This document shows, piece by piece, positions 43,774 to 56,357 of a DNA stretch of 64,000 nt. The position numbers and the translations under genes were made by a program. How positions within the stretch are numbered: position 1 is the stretch's first letter; the number at the start of each line of letters is the position of its first letter. Below the pieces are notes generated by a model. That model did not search any database, was not told the DNA's origin, and was given only the letters and a program-made list of their open reading frames with translations. This stretch comes from Fusobacterium varium (lineage in GTDB: Bacteria; Fusobacteriota; Fusobacteriia; Fusobacteriales; Fusobacteriaceae), in contig LR134390.1 in assembly GCA_900637705.1 (NCBI GenBank), forward strand, positions 62,001-126,000, read 5' to 3'.

Positions 43774-44847
43774 TTATTGCTTTACAGAGTAGCTTCCTAA
43801 TATTTTAAGGTCTTTACAATTTTTTCTCATAGCCTCTATCAAATCTTTTGTTTTTTGAGCTTTTAATTCTCCCACTATCTCCACGTAGAAGAAGTACTGC
43901 CAAGGAAGATTATGAAGTGAACGAGATTTAATACTTTCCATATTGAACCCATGCTCAGCTACTATCTGAATGATATGTGCAAGCTGTCCTGCATTGTGGT
44001 CAACAGTAAATAAAAGATTAAATCTATCCCCTTTCTCTTCAAGTTTTTTAGTTAATATAATAAATCTTGTAGTATTTTCTATACTTGTGTTAATATTTTC
44101 CACTAAAATTTTTAAACCATAAAGTTCAGCAGTTTCTCTGCTGGCAATGGCAGCTTTATGTATATCTCCAGCTTCACTTACAAATTTTGCTGCTAATGCA
44201 GTATTAGGGTATGGAATAGCTTCAAAATTAGTTCCTTTTAAGAAAGTCTGGCATTGAGATAAGGCTTGATGATGAGAATAGACTTTTTCTATATCTTTTA
44301 TTTCAGCATTTTTTAATCCCAATAAATTTTGATCTATTTTAAGGTCATAAATTCCAGAGATGTGGCAATCATATTTTAAAAGGAGGTCAAGGACTTCTCC
44401 CACTTCTCCTGTAAATGAGTTTTCAAAAGGAATAACGCCATATGCAGCAGCACCATCAGCAACAGACTTAAACACATCTTCAAAAGTTGCAAATGATTTT
44501 AATTTTGAATCTGGAAAAACTTTTTTTGAGGCAATATGAGAAAAAGCTCCCATAGTTCCTTGATATGCAACCACTCCTTTATTAATGATGGAAGCCTGAT
44601 ATCTTTTAGAAGTATCCATAAGATTTTGAATAAATTCCTTATATGATTCAATATATTTTTCTTCTGTGATATAGGCACAATTTTTTTCTATTACCTGTTT
44701 TTCTCTGCTGCTGTCAAGAATAGGCATATTATTTTCTAATTTATAAAGTATAACATCTTCCACAGCCTGCATTCTTTTTTGAAAAAGAGCTGCTATTTCT
44801 TTGTCTACTTCATTTATAATTTTTCTAGCTTCTTCCAATCTGTTCAT
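43774..44847 (-). CDS. pheA: Chorismate mutase/prephenate dehydratase
   Basis: A 357-residue P-protein: AroQ-type chorismate mutase (about 1-85), prephenate dehydratase (about 90-270, with GAFSHIASKKVFP and the NTTRFIIL catalytic motif) and a C-terminal ACT domain (DHNAGQLAHIIQIVAEHGFN with the Phe-binding ESIKSRSL segment). It makes phenylpyruvate and is feedback-inhibited by Phe. It is transcribed away from the aro operon and has GGGGGAAG upstream. Confidence 0.93.
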   Translation of the reverse strand: MNRLEEARKIINEVDKEIAALFQKRMQAVEDVILYKLENNMPILDSSREKQVIEKNCAYITEEKYIESYKEFIQNLMDTSKRYQASIINKGVVAYQGTMGAFSHIASKKVFPDSKLKSFATFEDVFKSVADGAAAYGVIPFENSFTGEVGEVLDLLLKYDCHISGIYDLKIDQNLLGLKNAEIKDIEKVYSHHQALSQCQTFLKGTNFEAIPYPNTALAAKFVSEAGDIHKAAIASRETAELYGLKILVENINTSIENTTRFIILTKKLEEKGDRFNLLFTVDHNAGQLAHIIQIVAEHGFNMESIKSRSLHNLPWQYFFYVEIVGELKAQKTKDLIEAMRKNCKDLKILGSYSVKQ

Positions 44848-45007: not shown

Positions 45008-45036
45008 TTGCAAAATTTTTAATATAGGTTTACTAT
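45008..45036 (+). promoter_or_regulatory. Promoter of the aro leader and operon
   Basis: TTGCAA and TACTAT are separated by 17 bases. The -10 end lies about 33 bases before the leader peptide start. Confidence 0.65.
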
Positions 45037-45068
45037 AAGTAAAATTCGTTTTTTCGGAGTGGTAACTT

Positions 45069-45119
45069 ATGAGAGATAAAAAAGCAGACAATATAGTATT
45101 CAGATTTTATTTTAGATAG
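45069..45119 (+). CDS. Leader peptide of the aromatic operon (16 aa)
   Basis: ATG at 45069 has GGAG 9 bases upstream. The peptide is MRDKKADNIVFRFYFR: five of its last six codons before the stop region are Phe, Arg, Phe, Tyr, Phe. It ends with TAG at the base of a 13-bp hairpin, followed by a terminator and the aro genes. In classical attenuation the ribosome pauses at such codons when Phe- or Tyr-tRNA is scarce. It is too short to be found by length-based gene calling. Confidence 0.78.
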   Translation: MRDKKADNIVFRFYFR

Positions 45120-45197
45120 CCTTGATACAACCATAAAGTCCTTATGGTCTTTTGTTGTATCAAGGCGAAGCATTCAAGGAATTGAATGCTTTTTTTT
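45119..45197 (+). promoter_or_regulatory. Attenuator: long hairpin plus intrinsic terminator
   Basis: GCCTTGATACAAC (45119-45131) pairs with GTTGTATCAAGGC (45154-45166), with a nested CCATAA/TTATGG hairpin. Directly after it AAGCATTCAA (45168-45177) pairs with TTGAATGCTT (45182-45191) around GGAA and runs into eight T residues. The first stem begins at the leader stop codon. A ribosome stalled in the leader would disturb the first stem; the exact antiterminator pairing was not resolved by eye. Confidence 0.8.
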
Positions 45198-45229
45198 ATA
45201 TCTGAGGAAAAAATATAAGGAGGATTTTT

Positions 45230-46231
45230 ATGAAACTGAGAATAGAACTTAGGGAAAAAAGTTATGATATTCATATTGAAAAGGGGATACTTCATAAAAT
45301 AAAAGAATATATAAATCTAGATAGAAAAGTTATGATAGTGACAGATAAGGGTGTTCCTGAAAAATATATGAATATAGTGAAAGCCCAATGTCCAAACGGA
45401 TACTCTATAGCTGTAGAACAGGGAGAGGGAGCAAAGAGCTTTAAAGTATTTGAAGAAGTATGCAGAAAGCTTCTTGATCTGGGATTCCATAGAAATGATT
45501 TGATAATAGCTCTTGGAGGAGGAGTAATTGGAGATCTTGCAGGTTTTGCAGCAGCTTCTTATATGAGGGGGATAGATTTTATAAATATTCCGACTACTAC
45601 ATTGTCACAGATAGATAGTTCTATTGGAGGAAAGACAGCAATAAATCTTGGAGATACTAAAAATATAATAGGAGCTTTTTATCAGCCGAAAGGAGTATTT
45701 ATAGATTTAGAAGTTTTGAAAACTCTTCCTGAAAGACACTATTATAATGGACTGGTAGAAGCATTGAAGGCAGGCCTTATATATGATAAAGAACTTTTTG
45801 AGATATTTGAAAATAAAAACATAGATGAGAATCTTCAAGAGATAATATACAGAGCCCTCTTGGTAAAAAAAGATGTGGTGGAAAAAGATGAAAAAGAAGA
45901 AAATCTTAGAAAAATACTAAACTTTGGACACACTGTAGGACATGGAATAGAGGGATTCTTTCATTTGAAAGATGTGCTTCATGGAGAAGGAGTAGCTATG
46001 GGAATGCTTCCTATGATAGAAGACGAAGATTTAAGAGAGAGAACTAAAAAAATATTGAAGAAAATGAATATAGATACAGATATAGAATATGACAGAGAAA
46101 AAGTATTTGAACTTATGCTTAAAGATAAAAAAGCTGATCAAGATAAAATAACTTTAGTAAAGGTAAAAGAGCTGGGAAAAGCTGAATTAGTAAAAGTTCC
46201 AATAGAAGAATGTAAAAATTATCTTAAATAA
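45230..46231 (+). CDS. aroB: 3-dehydroquinate synthase
   Basis: A 333-residue NAD+/zinc enzyme with LGGGVIGDLAGFAAASYMRG (96-115), PTTTLSQIDSSIGGKTAINLG and LNFGHTVGHGIE (zinc His). It makes 3-dehydroquinate, the second step of the shikimate pathway. It opens the five-gene operon and has AAGGAGG upstream. Confidence 0.95.
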   Translation: MKLRIELREKSYDIHIEKGILHKIKEYINLDRKVMIVTDKGVPEKYMNIVKAQCPNGYSIAVEQGEGAKSFKVFEEVCRKLLDLGFHRNDLIIALGGGVIGDLAGFAAASYMRGIDFINIPTTTLSQIDSSIGGKTAINLGDTKNIIGAFYQPKGVFIDLEVLKTLPERHYYNGLVEALKAGLIYDKELFEIFENKNIDENLQEIIYRALLVKKDVVEKDEKEENLRKILNFGHTVGHGIEGFFHLKDVLHGEGVAMGMLPMIEDEDLRERTKKILKKMNIDTDIEYDREKVFELMLKDKKADQDKITLVKVKELGKAELVKVPIEECKNYLK

Positions 46232-46242
46232 GAGGAGGAAAA

Positions 46243-47352
46243 ATGCAGAGTACAATAGGAAATAGTATAAAGCTCAGTCTTTTTGGAGAATCACATGGAA
46301 CAGCTATTGGAATAGTGATAGACGGCTTAGCCCCTGGAATAAAATTAGATACTGATTTTATACAGCAGCAGCTGGAAAAAAGAAAACCAAAGGGCAAAAT
46401 ATCAACTCAAAGACACGAAGCAGATGATTTTAAAATAGTCAGTGGATATTTCAATGGATACACAACTGGGACACCACTGTGCCTCATAATTGAAAATAAA
46501 TCACAGATGAGCAGAGATTATGAAAAAACTAAAAGCATAATGAGGCCTTCTCATGCTGATTATACAGCAGATGTAAAATATATGGGGTATCAGGACTATA
46601 GAGGGGGAGGACATTTTTCTGGAAGAACAACAGCACCTCTGGTAGCAGCAGGGGCAATATTCATTCAGATACTTAAATCTAAAGGAATAGAAATAGGAAC
46701 TCATATATTAAAATGTAAAAATGAAAGAGATAAAGATTTTTCATCAGATGAAATAACACTTTTAAAGGAAATCAGAGAAGTAAATGAAAAATATTTTCCT
46801 GTACTGGGAAAAGATGCAGAAGAAAAAATGAAAAACATAATAGAAAAAGCAGGGGAGGAACTTGATTCAGTAGGAGGAATACTGGAGACTGCTGTGACAG
46901 GATTGCCAGCTGGAATAGGAGAGCCATATTTTAATTCTGTAGAAAGTGTACTTTCTCATCTTATATATTCTATACCAGCAGTAAAAGGAATAGAATTCGG
47001 AGCTGGTTTTGGAATAACAGATATGTATGGAAGCGAAGCTAATGACAGTTTCTATTATGAAAATGAAAAGGTAAAAACAAAAACAAATAATAATGGTGGT
47101 ATCAACGGAGGGATAACAAATTCTATGCCGCTTATAATGAAAACTGCTGTAAAACCTACACCATCGATATATAAAGAGCAGGAAAGCATAGATATATCTA
47201 AAGAGAAAAATGTAAAATTTAATATTGAAGGAAGACATGACCCAGCTATAATACATAGAGCAAGAGTGGTTGTAGATTCTATGGCAGCATTTGGACTGCT
47301 TGATCTCATATGTATGAGATATGGATATATGTGGATGACAGATAAAAAATAA
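46243..47352 (+). CDS. aroC: Chorismate synthase
   Basis: A 369-residue FMN-dependent enzyme with NSIKLSLFGESHGTAIG (5-21), KPKGKISTQRHEADDF, RPSHADYTADVKY and the RGGGHFSGRTTAP loop. It makes chorismate from EPSP. It starts 11 bases after aroB with GAGGAGG. Confidence 0.96.
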   Translation: MQSTIGNSIKLSLFGESHGTAIGIVIDGLAPGIKLDTDFIQQQLEKRKPKGKISTQRHEADDFKIVSGYFNGYTTGTPLCLIIENKSQMSRDYEKTKSIMRPSHADYTADVKYMGYQDYRGGGHFSGRTTAPLVAAGAIFIQILKSKGIEIGTHILKCKNERDKDFSSDEITLLKEIREVNEKYFPVLGKDAEEKMKNIIEKAGEELDSVGGILETAVTGLPAGIGEPYFNSVESVLSHLIYSIPAVKGIEFGAGFGITDMYGSEANDSFYYENEKVKTKTNNNGGINGGITNSMPLIMKTAVKPTPSIYKEQESIDISKEKNVKFNIEGRHDPAIIHRARVVVDSMAAFGLLDLICMRYGYMWMTDKK

Positions 47353-47388: not shown

Positions 47389-48408
47389 ATGATAATAACT
47401 TTAAAAAAGAATACACCACAAGAAGAAATTCAAAAGATGATTGAGGCTTTAGAAAGTAAAAATGATGTATCAGTAACTCTTATATCAGGAGAAAACTACA
47501 ATGTATTTGGTATTGTAGGGGATACAACAAAAATAGATGAAAAAGCATTGAAGGCAAATCCATATGTTGAAGATGTAACTAGAATAGCAGCACCATATAA
47601 GAAAGCCAACAGACTTTTTCACCCAGAAGACAGTATTGTAGATGTAGCAGGAATCAAGATAGGTGCAGGACAAAAAATAGCTGTAATAGGAGGGCCTTGT
47701 TCTGTAGAGGGAGAATGCTCAGTTATGGAGATAGCTAAAGAAGTAAAAGAGGCAGGAGCTTCTATGCTTAGAGGTGGAGCTTACAAACCTCGTACATCAC
47801 CATATGCTTTTCAGGGAATGGCAAGTGAAGGAATACAATGTCTGGTGAAAGCAAGAGAAGCTTATGGACTTCCAATAGTGAGTGAACTTATGAGTGCTGA
47901 TAAAATAGATGAATTTGTTGAAAATGTAGACCTTATTCAAATAGGGGCAAGAAATATGCAGAACTTTGATTTACTAAAAGCTGTAGGGAAAATAAATAAG
48001 CCTATTCTTCTAAAAAGAGGACTTTCAAATACTATTGAGGAATGGATAATGTCAGCTGAATATATAATGGCTGGAGGAAATGAAAATGTAATACTGTGTG
48101 AAAGAGGTATCCGTACATTTGAAAAATATACTAGAAATACACTTGATCTCAGTGTAATACCTATTATCAAGCAGAAAACACATCTTCCTATAATAATCGA
48201 CCCTTCTCATGCTACTGGAAACTGGGAATATGTAGAATCAATGTCATTAGCAGCTATTGCTGCTGGGGCAGATGGACTTATCATAGAAGTTCATAATGAC
48301 CCTGAGCATGCTTGGAGTGATGGAGCTCAATCATTAAAACCTAAAAAATTCAAACATTTGATAGAGCAGGGAAGAAAAATAGCAAAAGTTATTGGAAGAG
48401 ATATGTAG
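47389..48408 (+). CDS. aroF: DAHP synthase, type I-beta with ferredoxin-like regulatory domain
   Basis: A 339-residue protein. Residues 1-70 are a ferredoxin-like/ACT-type domain (EIQKMIEALESKNDVSVTLI). The TIM barrel has VIGGPCSVEGE, RGGAYKPRTSPYAFQG, PIVSELMS, LKRGLSNTIEEW and IDPSHATGNWEY. The N-terminal domain is known in this subfamily to give feedback inhibition by Phe/Tyr. It makes the first intermediate of the pathway, here third in the operon. Confidence 0.94.
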   Translation: MIITLKKNTPQEEIQKMIEALESKNDVSVTLISGENYNVFGIVGDTTKIDEKALKANPYVEDVTRIAAPYKKANRLFHPEDSIVDVAGIKIGAGQKIAVIGGPCSVEGECSVMEIAKEVKEAGASMLRGGAYKPRTSPYAFQGMASEGIQCLVKAREAYGLPIVSELMSADKIDEFVENVDLIQIGARNMQNFDLLKAVGKINKPILLKRGLSNTIEEWIMSAEYIMAGGNENVILCERGIRTFEKYTRNTLDLSVIPIIKQKTHLPIIIDPSHATGNWEYVESMSLAAIAAGADGLIIEVHNDPEHAWSDGAQSLKPKKFKHLIEQGRKIAKVIGRDM

Positions 48409-48431: not shown

Positions 48432-49703
48432 ATGAAAGTAAAAATATATCCATCAAAATGCAGTGGGCAGATAGTTATACCTCCTTCTAAAAGTATGGGG
48501 CATAGAGCAATAATATGTGCTTCATTGGCTTCTGGAAGAAGTGTCATAAAAAATGTAGCTTATTCTGATGATATAAAAACAACTATTGAGGGAATGAGAA
48601 AATTAGGAGCTGAAATAGAGGAGAATGGAGATATTCTTATTATAGATGGAATAAAAGATATTACAAGAATTTCAGATGAAATAATAAATTGTAATGAATC
48701 TGGCTCAACTTTGAGATTTTTTATACCTATATTTTCTTTAACTGGGAAAAAAATAACTTTTCTTGGAAAGAACAGACTTCTTAAAAGGCCTCAAAAAATA
48801 TATGAGGATATATTTAAAGAACAGAAACTGCATTATTTTCATGATGAAACTAAAATAGAAATAGAAGGCAGATTGAAAGCTGGAACATATGTGGTAGATG
48901 GAAATATAAGCTCACAGTTTATAAGTGGACTTCTATTTACTCTTCCTTTGCTGGAGGGAGATTCTAAAATAAAAATAAAACCTCCTTTTGAATCAGCTTC
49001 GTATATAGAGCTTACTCTTGAAATGTTGAGAAGGTATGGAATAGAAATATCTAAGACAGATGAACTTACTTTTAAAATTAAAGGAAATCAAAAATATAAG
49101 CCTTGTGATTATACAATAGAGGGAGATTTTTCACAACTTGGTTTTTTTGCAGTACTGGGAGCAATAAATAATAATATTGAATGTCTTGGTCTGAATCATG
49201 GGTCTAATCAGGGAGATAAGGCTATAATAGAAATATTAAGAAATGCTGGAATAAAAATAGAAAATATAGAGGGAGGATATCTAATTCATAAGAGTACTCC
49301 CAAAAGTTGTGAAATAGATCTTGCTGACTGTCCAGATCTAGGGCCGATACTTAATGTATTGGGAATGTACGGAGATGGAAAATTCAGAATCTACAATGCA
49401 GGAAGATTGAGATACAAGGAAAGCGACAGAATAGCAGCTATGGAAGAGGAACTTTTAAAGCTGGGAGTGGACATAAAAACTACTGAAGATGAAATTTTTA
49501 TATCTGGTAAAAAAATATATGATGGTGGAATAGAAGCAGCAGGACATAAAGATCATAGAATAGTTATGAGTCTGGCAGTGGCAGCAACTATTATGAACAA
49601 ACCAGTCATTATAGATGGAGCAGAGGCTGTAGAAAAGTCTTACCCAGATTTTTTTAAAGATATAGAGAAGATAGGGATAAAGGTTGAATACTATGATAAA
49701 TAA
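48432..49703 (+). CDS. aroA: EPSP synthase (3-phosphoshikimate 1-carboxyvinyltransferase)
   Basis: A 423-residue enzyme with PPSKSMGHRAIICASLASG (16-34), NESGSTLRFFIPI, SSQFISGLLF, KESDRIAAMEEEL and GHKDHRIVMSLAVAA. It joins shikimate-3-phosphate and PEP. The stop overlaps the tyrA start region. GGAGG precedes the ATG. Confidence 0.95.
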   Translation: MKVKIYPSKCSGQIVIPPSKSMGHRAIICASLASGRSVIKNVAYSDDIKTTIEGMRKLGAEIEENGDILIIDGIKDITRISDEIINCNESGSTLRFFIPIFSLTGKKITFLGKNRLLKRPQKIYEDIFKEQKLHYFHDETKIEIEGRLKAGTYVVDGNISSQFISGLLFTLPLLEGDSKIKIKPPFESASYIELTLEMLRRYGIEISKTDELTFKIKGNQKYKPCDYTIEGDFSQLGFFAVLGAINNNIECLGLNHGSNQGDKAIIEILRNAGIKIENIEGGYLIHKSTPKSCEIDLADCPDLGPILNVLGMYGDGKFRIYNAGRLRYKESDRIAAMEEELLKLGVDIKTTEDEIFISGKKIYDGGIEAAGHKDHRIVMSLAVAATIMNKPVIIDGAEAVEKSYPDFFKDIEKIGIKVEYYDK

Positions 49704-50565
49704 AAATACAAAGTTCCTAATTGTAGGGTTGGGACTTTTAGGGGGAGCTTATGCAAAAGCTCTTAAGAAAAAAGGATATTTTGTAAGTGCTGTTGATATT
49801 AATAAAGACAGTATAGAGTATGCTCTTGAAAATAAAATAATAGATGAAGGGGCAGTTTCTGATTATGAATCATTGATAGAAAAGGCAGATGTAATAATAT
49901 CAGGACTTTATCCTACTACTATGGTAGGATGGATAGAAAAAAATAAAAAATATTTAAAAAAAGGCTGTATACTTACTGATGTAAGTGGTGTAAAAAGAGG
50001 TATAGTTAATAAAGTACAAGGAATTCTGCCCAAAGATACAGAGTTTATCAGTTCTCATCCAATGGCAGGAAAAGAAGTGAGTGGAGTGAGAAACAGTGAT
50101 GAAACTATTTTTGAAATAGCTAACTTTATTGTTACTCCTACAGAAAAAAATACAGTTCAGGGAATAGAATTTGCAAAGGAACTTGGAAAAATACTTGGTT
50201 TTAGAAATATAACCCAGCTTTCTTTGGAGGAACATGATAAAATGATTGGGTTTGTATCTCAGCTTACTCATGTGATAGCTGTATCCCTTATGAATACAAA
50301 TGATAATACACATCTTGTAGAGTATACAGGGGATTCATTTAGAGATCTTACTAGAATAGCTAAAATAAATGAAGTTTTGTGGAGTGAACTTTTTCTTTTG
50401 AACAAAGATAATCTAGTGAAAGAAATAGATGATTTTACAGCAGAACTTAATAACTTTAGAGAAAAACTTGTAAGTGAAGATGTTGAAGGAATGAAAAAAT
50501 TATTTATTCAATCAACTGAGAGAAGAAAACTTTTTGACAAGAAAGATGTAAAGAATAGGAAGTGA
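49693..50565 (+). CDS. tyrA: Prephenate dehydrogenase
   Basis: About 290 residues with an N-terminal NAD(P) fold (FLIVGLGLLGGAYAKAL), LTDVSGVKRGI, the SSHPMAGKEVSGV active-site His segment and a helical dimerisation domain (THVIAVSLMNTN, FRDLTRIAKI). It makes 4-hydroxyphenylpyruvate. ATG 49693 is chosen over TTG 49684; both overlap the aroA end. There is no ACT domain, so feedback control is probably by the attenuator and DAHP synthase. Confidence 0.92.
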   Translation: MINKNTKFLIVGLGLLGGAYAKALKKKGYFVSAVDINKDSIEYALENKIIDEGAVSDYESLIEKADVIISGLYPTTMVGWIEKNKKYLKKGCILTDVSGVKRGIVNKVQGILPKDTEFISSHPMAGKEVSGVRNSDETIFEIANFIVTPTEKNTVQGIEFAKELGKILGFRNITQLSLEEHDKMIGFVSQLTHVIAVSLMNTNDNTHLVEYTGDSFRDLTRIAKINEVLWSELFLLNKDNLVKEIDDFTAELNNFREKLVSEDVEGMKKLFIQSTERRKLFDKKDVKNRK

Positions 50566-56009: not shown

Positions 56010-56357
56010 GGGGATGCAAAGGTTTCGACGGGGTTCTCAGGTTATAGGTAGCAGGTCAGGGTGACCGCTGTGAGAGGTCAACTCATCGTTTAGATGGAAA
56101 CAAAAATTACGCTTTAGCTGCTTAATGTCAGCTCACCTTTGAACATATTCTTCTGTAAATGTGTTCAGCCAAGGTGTCACTAAAATACAGATTACCCTAA
56201 ATGATTTCTCTAAGTTATAGGGGACATTCCAGAGGATAGCTTTAGTTAGCCCTGTCTGTGGGATTAACTACTGCGAAATTCAATAGCAGACTAAACTTGT
56301 AGAAGCCTATGGCGCTGGCAATTTCGGACACGGGTTCGATTCCCGTCATCTCCACCA
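56010..56357 (+). ncRNA. ssrA: tmRNA (transfer-messenger RNA)
   Basis: The ends form the tRNA-like acceptor: GGGGATG pairs with CATCTCC, followed by ACCA. The 3' half has GGACACGGGTTCGATTCCCGTCATC (T arm with GGTTCGATTCC). The 5' part starts GGGGATGCAAAGGTTTCGACGGG, typical of tmRNA. The reading frame encodes a tag ending GNKNYALAA then TAA at 56123-56125. It rescues stalled ribosomes and tags proteins for degradation. Pseudoknot segments lie between the tag and the acceptor. Confidence 0.97.

Follow-up and report, generated by a model that had tools for sequence, protein, structure and literature searches.

A 64,000-nucleotide stretch of the Fusobacterium varium genome (positions 62,001 to 126,000 of contig LR134390.1; hereafter the window) carries an operon for chorismate and tyrosine synthesis, and the question raised by this locus is whether the RNA ahead of its first gene is a leader-peptide attenuator that responds to phenylalanine and tyrosine and, if so, by which switch logic and from which lineage it came. 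An earlier note, made from the sequence of the window, had described such an attenuator with its parts in the order known from Escherichia coli.

The leader element and its operon

The operon is encoded on the forward strand and comprises aroB (3-dehydroquinate synthase, gene 1; 45230-46231), aroC (chorismate synthase; 46243-47352), the DAHP synthase gene (47389-48408), aroA (EPSP synthase; 48432-49703) and tyrA (prephenate dehydrogenase; 49684-50565). The divergent pheA gene (chorismate mutase-prephenate dehydratase; 43774-44847, reverse strand) would be part of the same transferred block (see below). The window also contains a tmRNA gene (56010-56357, forward strand; Rfam RF00023, 169 bits).

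All parts of the leader element lie on the forward strand upstream of aroB. A putative sigma-70 promoter, TTGCAA-17-TACTAT (45009-45037), was read from the sequence with 8 of 12 matches and falls under the threshold of the promoter scanner. It is followed by a Shine-Dalgarno-like sequence, CGGAGTGG (45055-45062, sequence reading), and by a leader peptide ORF of 16 codons, MRDKKADNIVFRFYFR (45069-45119; ATG at 45069, stop codon TAG at 45117-45119), the Phe/Tyr codons of which include codons 11, 13, 14 and 15 (TTC, TTT, TAT and TTT, respectively). A 13-bp stem, P1, starts with the G that ends the stop codon, with its 5' strand at 45119-45131 pairing with its 3' strand at 45154-45166, and it encloses an inner hairpin, P2 (CCATAA/TTATGG; 45131-45147), plus a CTTTT run (the two spanning 45131-45153), a possible RNA polymerase pause site. 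Before aroB follows an intrinsic terminator (45168-45197) with a 10-bp stem, AAGCATTCAA-GGAA-TTGAATGCTT (45168-45191), and a T8 run at 45190-45197.

The 153-nt leader RNA folds with a z-score of -5.6, and none of 200 shuffled sequences was equally stable. An ORF preceded by a Shine-Dalgarno sequence and having at least four Phe/Tyr among its last six codons arose in 10 of 5000 Markov shuffles, while the terminator scan of the window gave one terminator against 0.6 expected, i.e. weak evidence if taken alone.

T-boxes regulate Tyr/Phe-type operons in many Firmicutes, and this general knowledge is what would favor a T-box or a known Tyr/Phe riboswitch at this locus. Covariance-model searches argue against it, since the Rfam search of the window gave no riboswitch or T-box match at the leader (RF00230 being absent), seven representative loci searched at an E-value of 0.5 gave zero matches, and no T-box RNA was found across the whole genome (G000). 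We therefore consider this explanation extremely improbable.

Conservation within the genus

The same leader element is present in three genus mates, where the sequence from promoter to terminator is 96-100% identical to the window as compared to only 80% for the DNA upstream of the promoter. Specifically, identity is 96% for the promoter and for the leader ORF, 99% for the last nine codons plus the stop codon, 98% for P1-P2 and 100% for the terminator, which is single-copy in each of the four genus genomes. The -10 element reads TATTAT in two of the genus mates, CGGAGTGG is invariant across the four genus members, and the Phe/Tyr codons show a single difference, the synonymous replacement of TAT by TAC. 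The 16-codon Phe/Tyr ORF, the 13-bp hairpin at the leader stop and the terminator, which the earlier note had placed ahead of aroB-aroC-DAHP synthase-aroA-tyrA, are borne out by the folding z-score and by this degree of conservation.

Two other members of the genus, G024 and G028, have the same aroB type (68-69% identity; loci L006 and L007), a divergent pheA and a short upstream region. Upstream of aroB in these two loci both the leader and the terminator are absent; G024 and G028 apparently either lost the attenuator or never acquired it.

Origin of the locus

The AroB protein of the window shares 61% identity with that of Longicatena caecimuris, but mostly 35-46% with the AroB proteins of other Fusobacteriaceae; a different AroB is carried by most of the other Fusobacteriaceae that were searched, several genus mates among them. 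In a maximum-likelihood AroB tree, six fusobacterial proteins of the window type nest within an Erysipelotrichaceae/Clostridia clade (support 100/99), and the remaining sampled fusobacterial AroB proteins lie outside this clade. Moreover, the gene order, pheA on the reverse strand followed by leader-aroB-aroC-DAHP synthase-aroA-tyrA, is identical in L032, L033 and L034. From the AroB phylogeny together with the identical synteny it would follow that the locus was acquired as a whole from the Erysipelotrichaceae lineage, and the simplest reading of the sequences is a transfer of the entire pheA / leader-aroB...tyrA locus into the Fusobacterium lineage from an Erysipelotrichaceae-like donor. The earlier note had missed that the locus, judging from this nesting and synteny, is not natively fusobacterial. 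A search at the order level did not reveal further families with the window type of aroB. One member of the Erysipelotrichaceae, G206, has two copies of aroB, equal in match score and approximately 114 kb apart (C1:2784701 and 2898332).

Leader peptides in Erysipelotrichaceae

Using one objective criterion, identical on both sides, a Tyr/Phe-rich leader plus a terminator was identified in 67 of 127 Erysipelotrichaceae aroB upstream regions and in 2 of 1270 shuffled regions. This comparison gives good support to the suggestion in the earlier note that a Phe/Tyr leader peptide controls a terminator before the shikimate-tyrosine operon. The leaders end in runs of Tyr and Phe, e.g. MHNKGFYYYL, MLFNRYYYS, MRKNAYFYYYE, MKTLTNTFYFYFR and MNTNLFSYFYFYF, and many of them are preceded by GGAGTG or GGAGG. 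Among the last eight codons of the homologous leaders, 260 of 265 TT-/TA- codons encode Phe or Tyr in frame, compared to 72/114 and 56/219 off frame, a count that is partly circular because the leaders were selected by their Phe/Tyr content.

The homologous leaders diverge nearly everywhere but keep the Phe/Tyr run and the hairpins, and the Phe/Tyr codons of the leader ORF are kept across two phyla. A pattern in which homologues keep the hairpins but lose the Phe/Tyr codons, named in the earlier note as evidence against its reading, is therefore not what we see in general. The exception is L123 (G151): here the stop codon after the Tyr run is lost and the ORF continues through P1 (MHKPMVDYYYALLRLEPIDRMDIFTF), with P1, P2 and the terminator retained.

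Hairpin geometry and folding in class A

The homologues show three RNA architectures at the same operon, referred to as class A, the class B relay and the class C four-strand type. Class A takes in the window and Longicatena. In 23 of 25 class A sequences P1 begins +1 to +5 nt from the first base of the stop codon (+2 in the window), and a ribosome positioned at the stop codon would therefore cover the 5' strand of P1. When 21 class A sequences were aligned with MAFFT and folded as a consensus, no pairs were obtained because the 3' strands of P1 misalign; we therefore used strand-permutation tests, in which matched strands are compared with permuted ones. The two strands of P1 co-evolve across 20 homologues (z -8.3), as do the arms of P2 (z -4.2) and those of the terminator (z -5.3) in class A.

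These data bear on the idea that the terminator is constitutive and partial and that the leader ORF has no amino-acid-specific role. U-rich DNA easily yields Phe/Tyr codons and the window has no detectable antiterminator, as would be expected in such a case. We nevertheless regard it as very improbable given that codon conservation is confined to the reading frame, is located right before the stop codon and recurs in dozens of divergent genomes, and that the P1 geometry is tied to the stop codon.

How P1 might influence the terminator is less straightforward. P1 and the terminator in the window share no bases, which rules out P1 as an antiterminator acting through terminator overlap. According to the masking model, the terminator probability in the window is at least 0.92 at every ribosome position, and before the 3' arm of the terminator has been made its 5' arm is paired upstream with a probability of 0.03-0.10 when the ribosome is stalled as compared to 0.49 when it is at the stop codon. 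The 5' arm would thus be freer during stalling, which is opposite to classical logic, and no antiterminator that is both exclusive with the terminator and favored by stalling was found in the window using this model. Likewise, no mutually exclusive pairing with strong support was found in class A.

Other pairings were considered and rejected. The P2 3' arm plus U-run could pair with the terminator 5' arm (GGUUCUUUU:AAAAGCAUC), but the class A post-stop region and terminator are less complementary than permuted ones (z +2.3). A bulged 7-bp helix between the P1 3' strand and the 3' arm of the terminator (GUAUCAA:UUGAAUGC) is not conserved and its logic would be inverted, and pairing of CCUUGA in the P1 5' strand with UCAAGG in the terminator involves 6 bp and is weaker than P1.

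A classical four-strand attenuator such as that of E. coli pheA, in which a strand released by stalling on Phe/Tyr codons pairs with the 5' arm of the terminator, is consequently quite unlikely for the window. The order of the parts fits, and two homologous loci (L185 and L144) are exactly of this type; we found no such strand in the window, the pairing probabilities given above argue against one, and the positive z-score means that co-evolution of the post-stop region with the terminator is absent from class A. Hence, the statement in the earlier note that the parts stand in the order of E. coli attenuators holds for the order itself and is not supported for the mechanism, which would require a post-stop hairpin that overlaps the terminator and a stall-dependent antiterminator as found in these two homologous loci.

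The leader coding region might itself act as antiterminator, such that a ribosome-free leader pairs with the loop and 3' arm of the terminator and readthrough reports missing translation rather than stalling at Phe/Tyr codons. Complementarity between leader and terminator co-evolves in class A (z -3.5, p 0.0004), and the pairing is strongest in L140, L142, L147, L198, L201 and L202 (-13 to -21 kcal/mol). This signal comes mainly from one subgroup; in the window the pairing is weak (about 8 bp including wobbles) and the terminator probability is still 0.95 without a ribosome. As this alternative also leaves the Phe/Tyr codons unexplained, we find it unlikely.

Two other RNA architectures at aroB

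Class C consists of two loci upstream of aroB, L185 (G188) and L144 (G190), each a textbook four-strand Tyr/Phe attenuator. In the masking model their terminator probability is 0.95 with the ribosome at the stop codon, as compared to 0.26 (L185) and 0.49 (L144) at the best stall position.

In class B, present in many species, hairpin 1 directly follows the stop codon and is followed by segment X (GGCATTATCT), for which three pairing partners are possible: the end of the leader, the 3' arm of hairpin 1, and the loop plus 3' arm of the terminator; L171, which carries GGCATTATC, is one such relay locus. These pairings and the terminator all co-evolve (z -3.2 to -9.2, matched vs permuted). For the antiterminator, X:F, the z-score is -3.2; its signal weakens to p 0.06 after dereplication to eight dissimilar sequences, and the remaining class B helices are still significant after this dereplication. 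Before the terminator 3' arm has been made, the loop is sequestered with a probability of 0.84-0.87 when the ribosome is stalled vs 0.62 when it is at the stop codon. Together this supports a classical logic for class B, in which hairpin 1 stays intact when the ribosome stalls, so that X is free and antiterminates. To our knowledge, a relay of this kind with one extra hairpin has not been described earlier.

Proposed mechanism

Taken together, we predict that the element in the window is a ribosome-gated Phe/Tyr leader-peptide transcription attenuator that was acquired, along with pheA / aroB-aroC-DAHP synthase-aroA-tyrA, from an Erysipelotrichaceae-like donor, and we consider this the likely explanation. 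With ample Tyr and Phe the ribosome would promptly reach the stop codon and cover the P1 5' strand, and transcription would end at the terminator; with Tyr- or Phe-tRNA in short supply the ribosome would lag, P1 would form and the polymerase would read into aroB-tyrA. We infer this amino-acid response of the window leader from the comparison of homologues and from its relatives in classes B and C. Equilibrium folding of the window, taken alone, points in the opposite direction to the proposed path from P1 formation to readthrough, and the leaderless aroB regions of the close relatives G024 and G028 count against the proposal as well.

Since an antiterminator of the classical type was not found in the window, we regard the element as a new variant, probably with the function of an attenuator. 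We tentatively suggest, as a possibility that is rather doubtful at present, that a ribosome-gated hairpin here controls a non-overlapping terminator via co-transcriptional kinetics, pausing or polymerase contacts and not via exclusive base pairing, and that at least three switch logics have evolved in one family under the same Phe/Tyr leader.

The Phe/Tyr leader peptides at about half of the examined Erysipelotrichaceae aroB loci form a family that has apparently gone unannotated. If this leader was carried into fusobacteria with its complete operon, a ribosome-sensing RNA switch can cross phyla together with its genes, and the combination of one leader with three RNA logics at a single locus opens attenuator evolution to testing.

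Comparison with known systems

In the open-licence literature we did not find a published Phe/Tyr leader of this type for Fusobacterium or Erysipelotrichaceae. Of the published motifs found, the one that comes closest is uORFC-13-1, located upstream of aroF in Acholeplasma (Brewer et al. 2021, PMC8632094); it likewise has a candidate uORF with Phe codon(s), a promoter and an RBS ahead of a gene for DAHP synthase, with a terminator adjacent. Compared by description, it is reported only from Acholeplasma and environmental sequences, is located before aroF and has at least one Phe codon, whereas the family of the window has Tyr/Phe runs of three to eight codons before aroB in Erysipelotrichaceae and Fusobacterium.

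Leader peptides in Firmicutes are known for hisZ/hisS (PMC2965389), and a Leu-rich attenuator is described for ilv-leu of Staphylococcus aureus (PMC5794164). Both are, like the window, cases of leader-peptide attenuation outside Proteobacteria and Actinobacteria, and they differ from it in amino acids, genes and RNA structures.

Compared to the trp and pheA attenuators of E. coli, the post-stop hairpin of the window and its terminator do not overlap and the antiterminator was not found, with L185 and L144 being the classical representatives among its homologues. What the window shares with the E. coli systems is a short leader rich in codons for the end products, a terminator before the first gene, and a hairpin the 5' strand of which a ribosome on the stop codon would cover.
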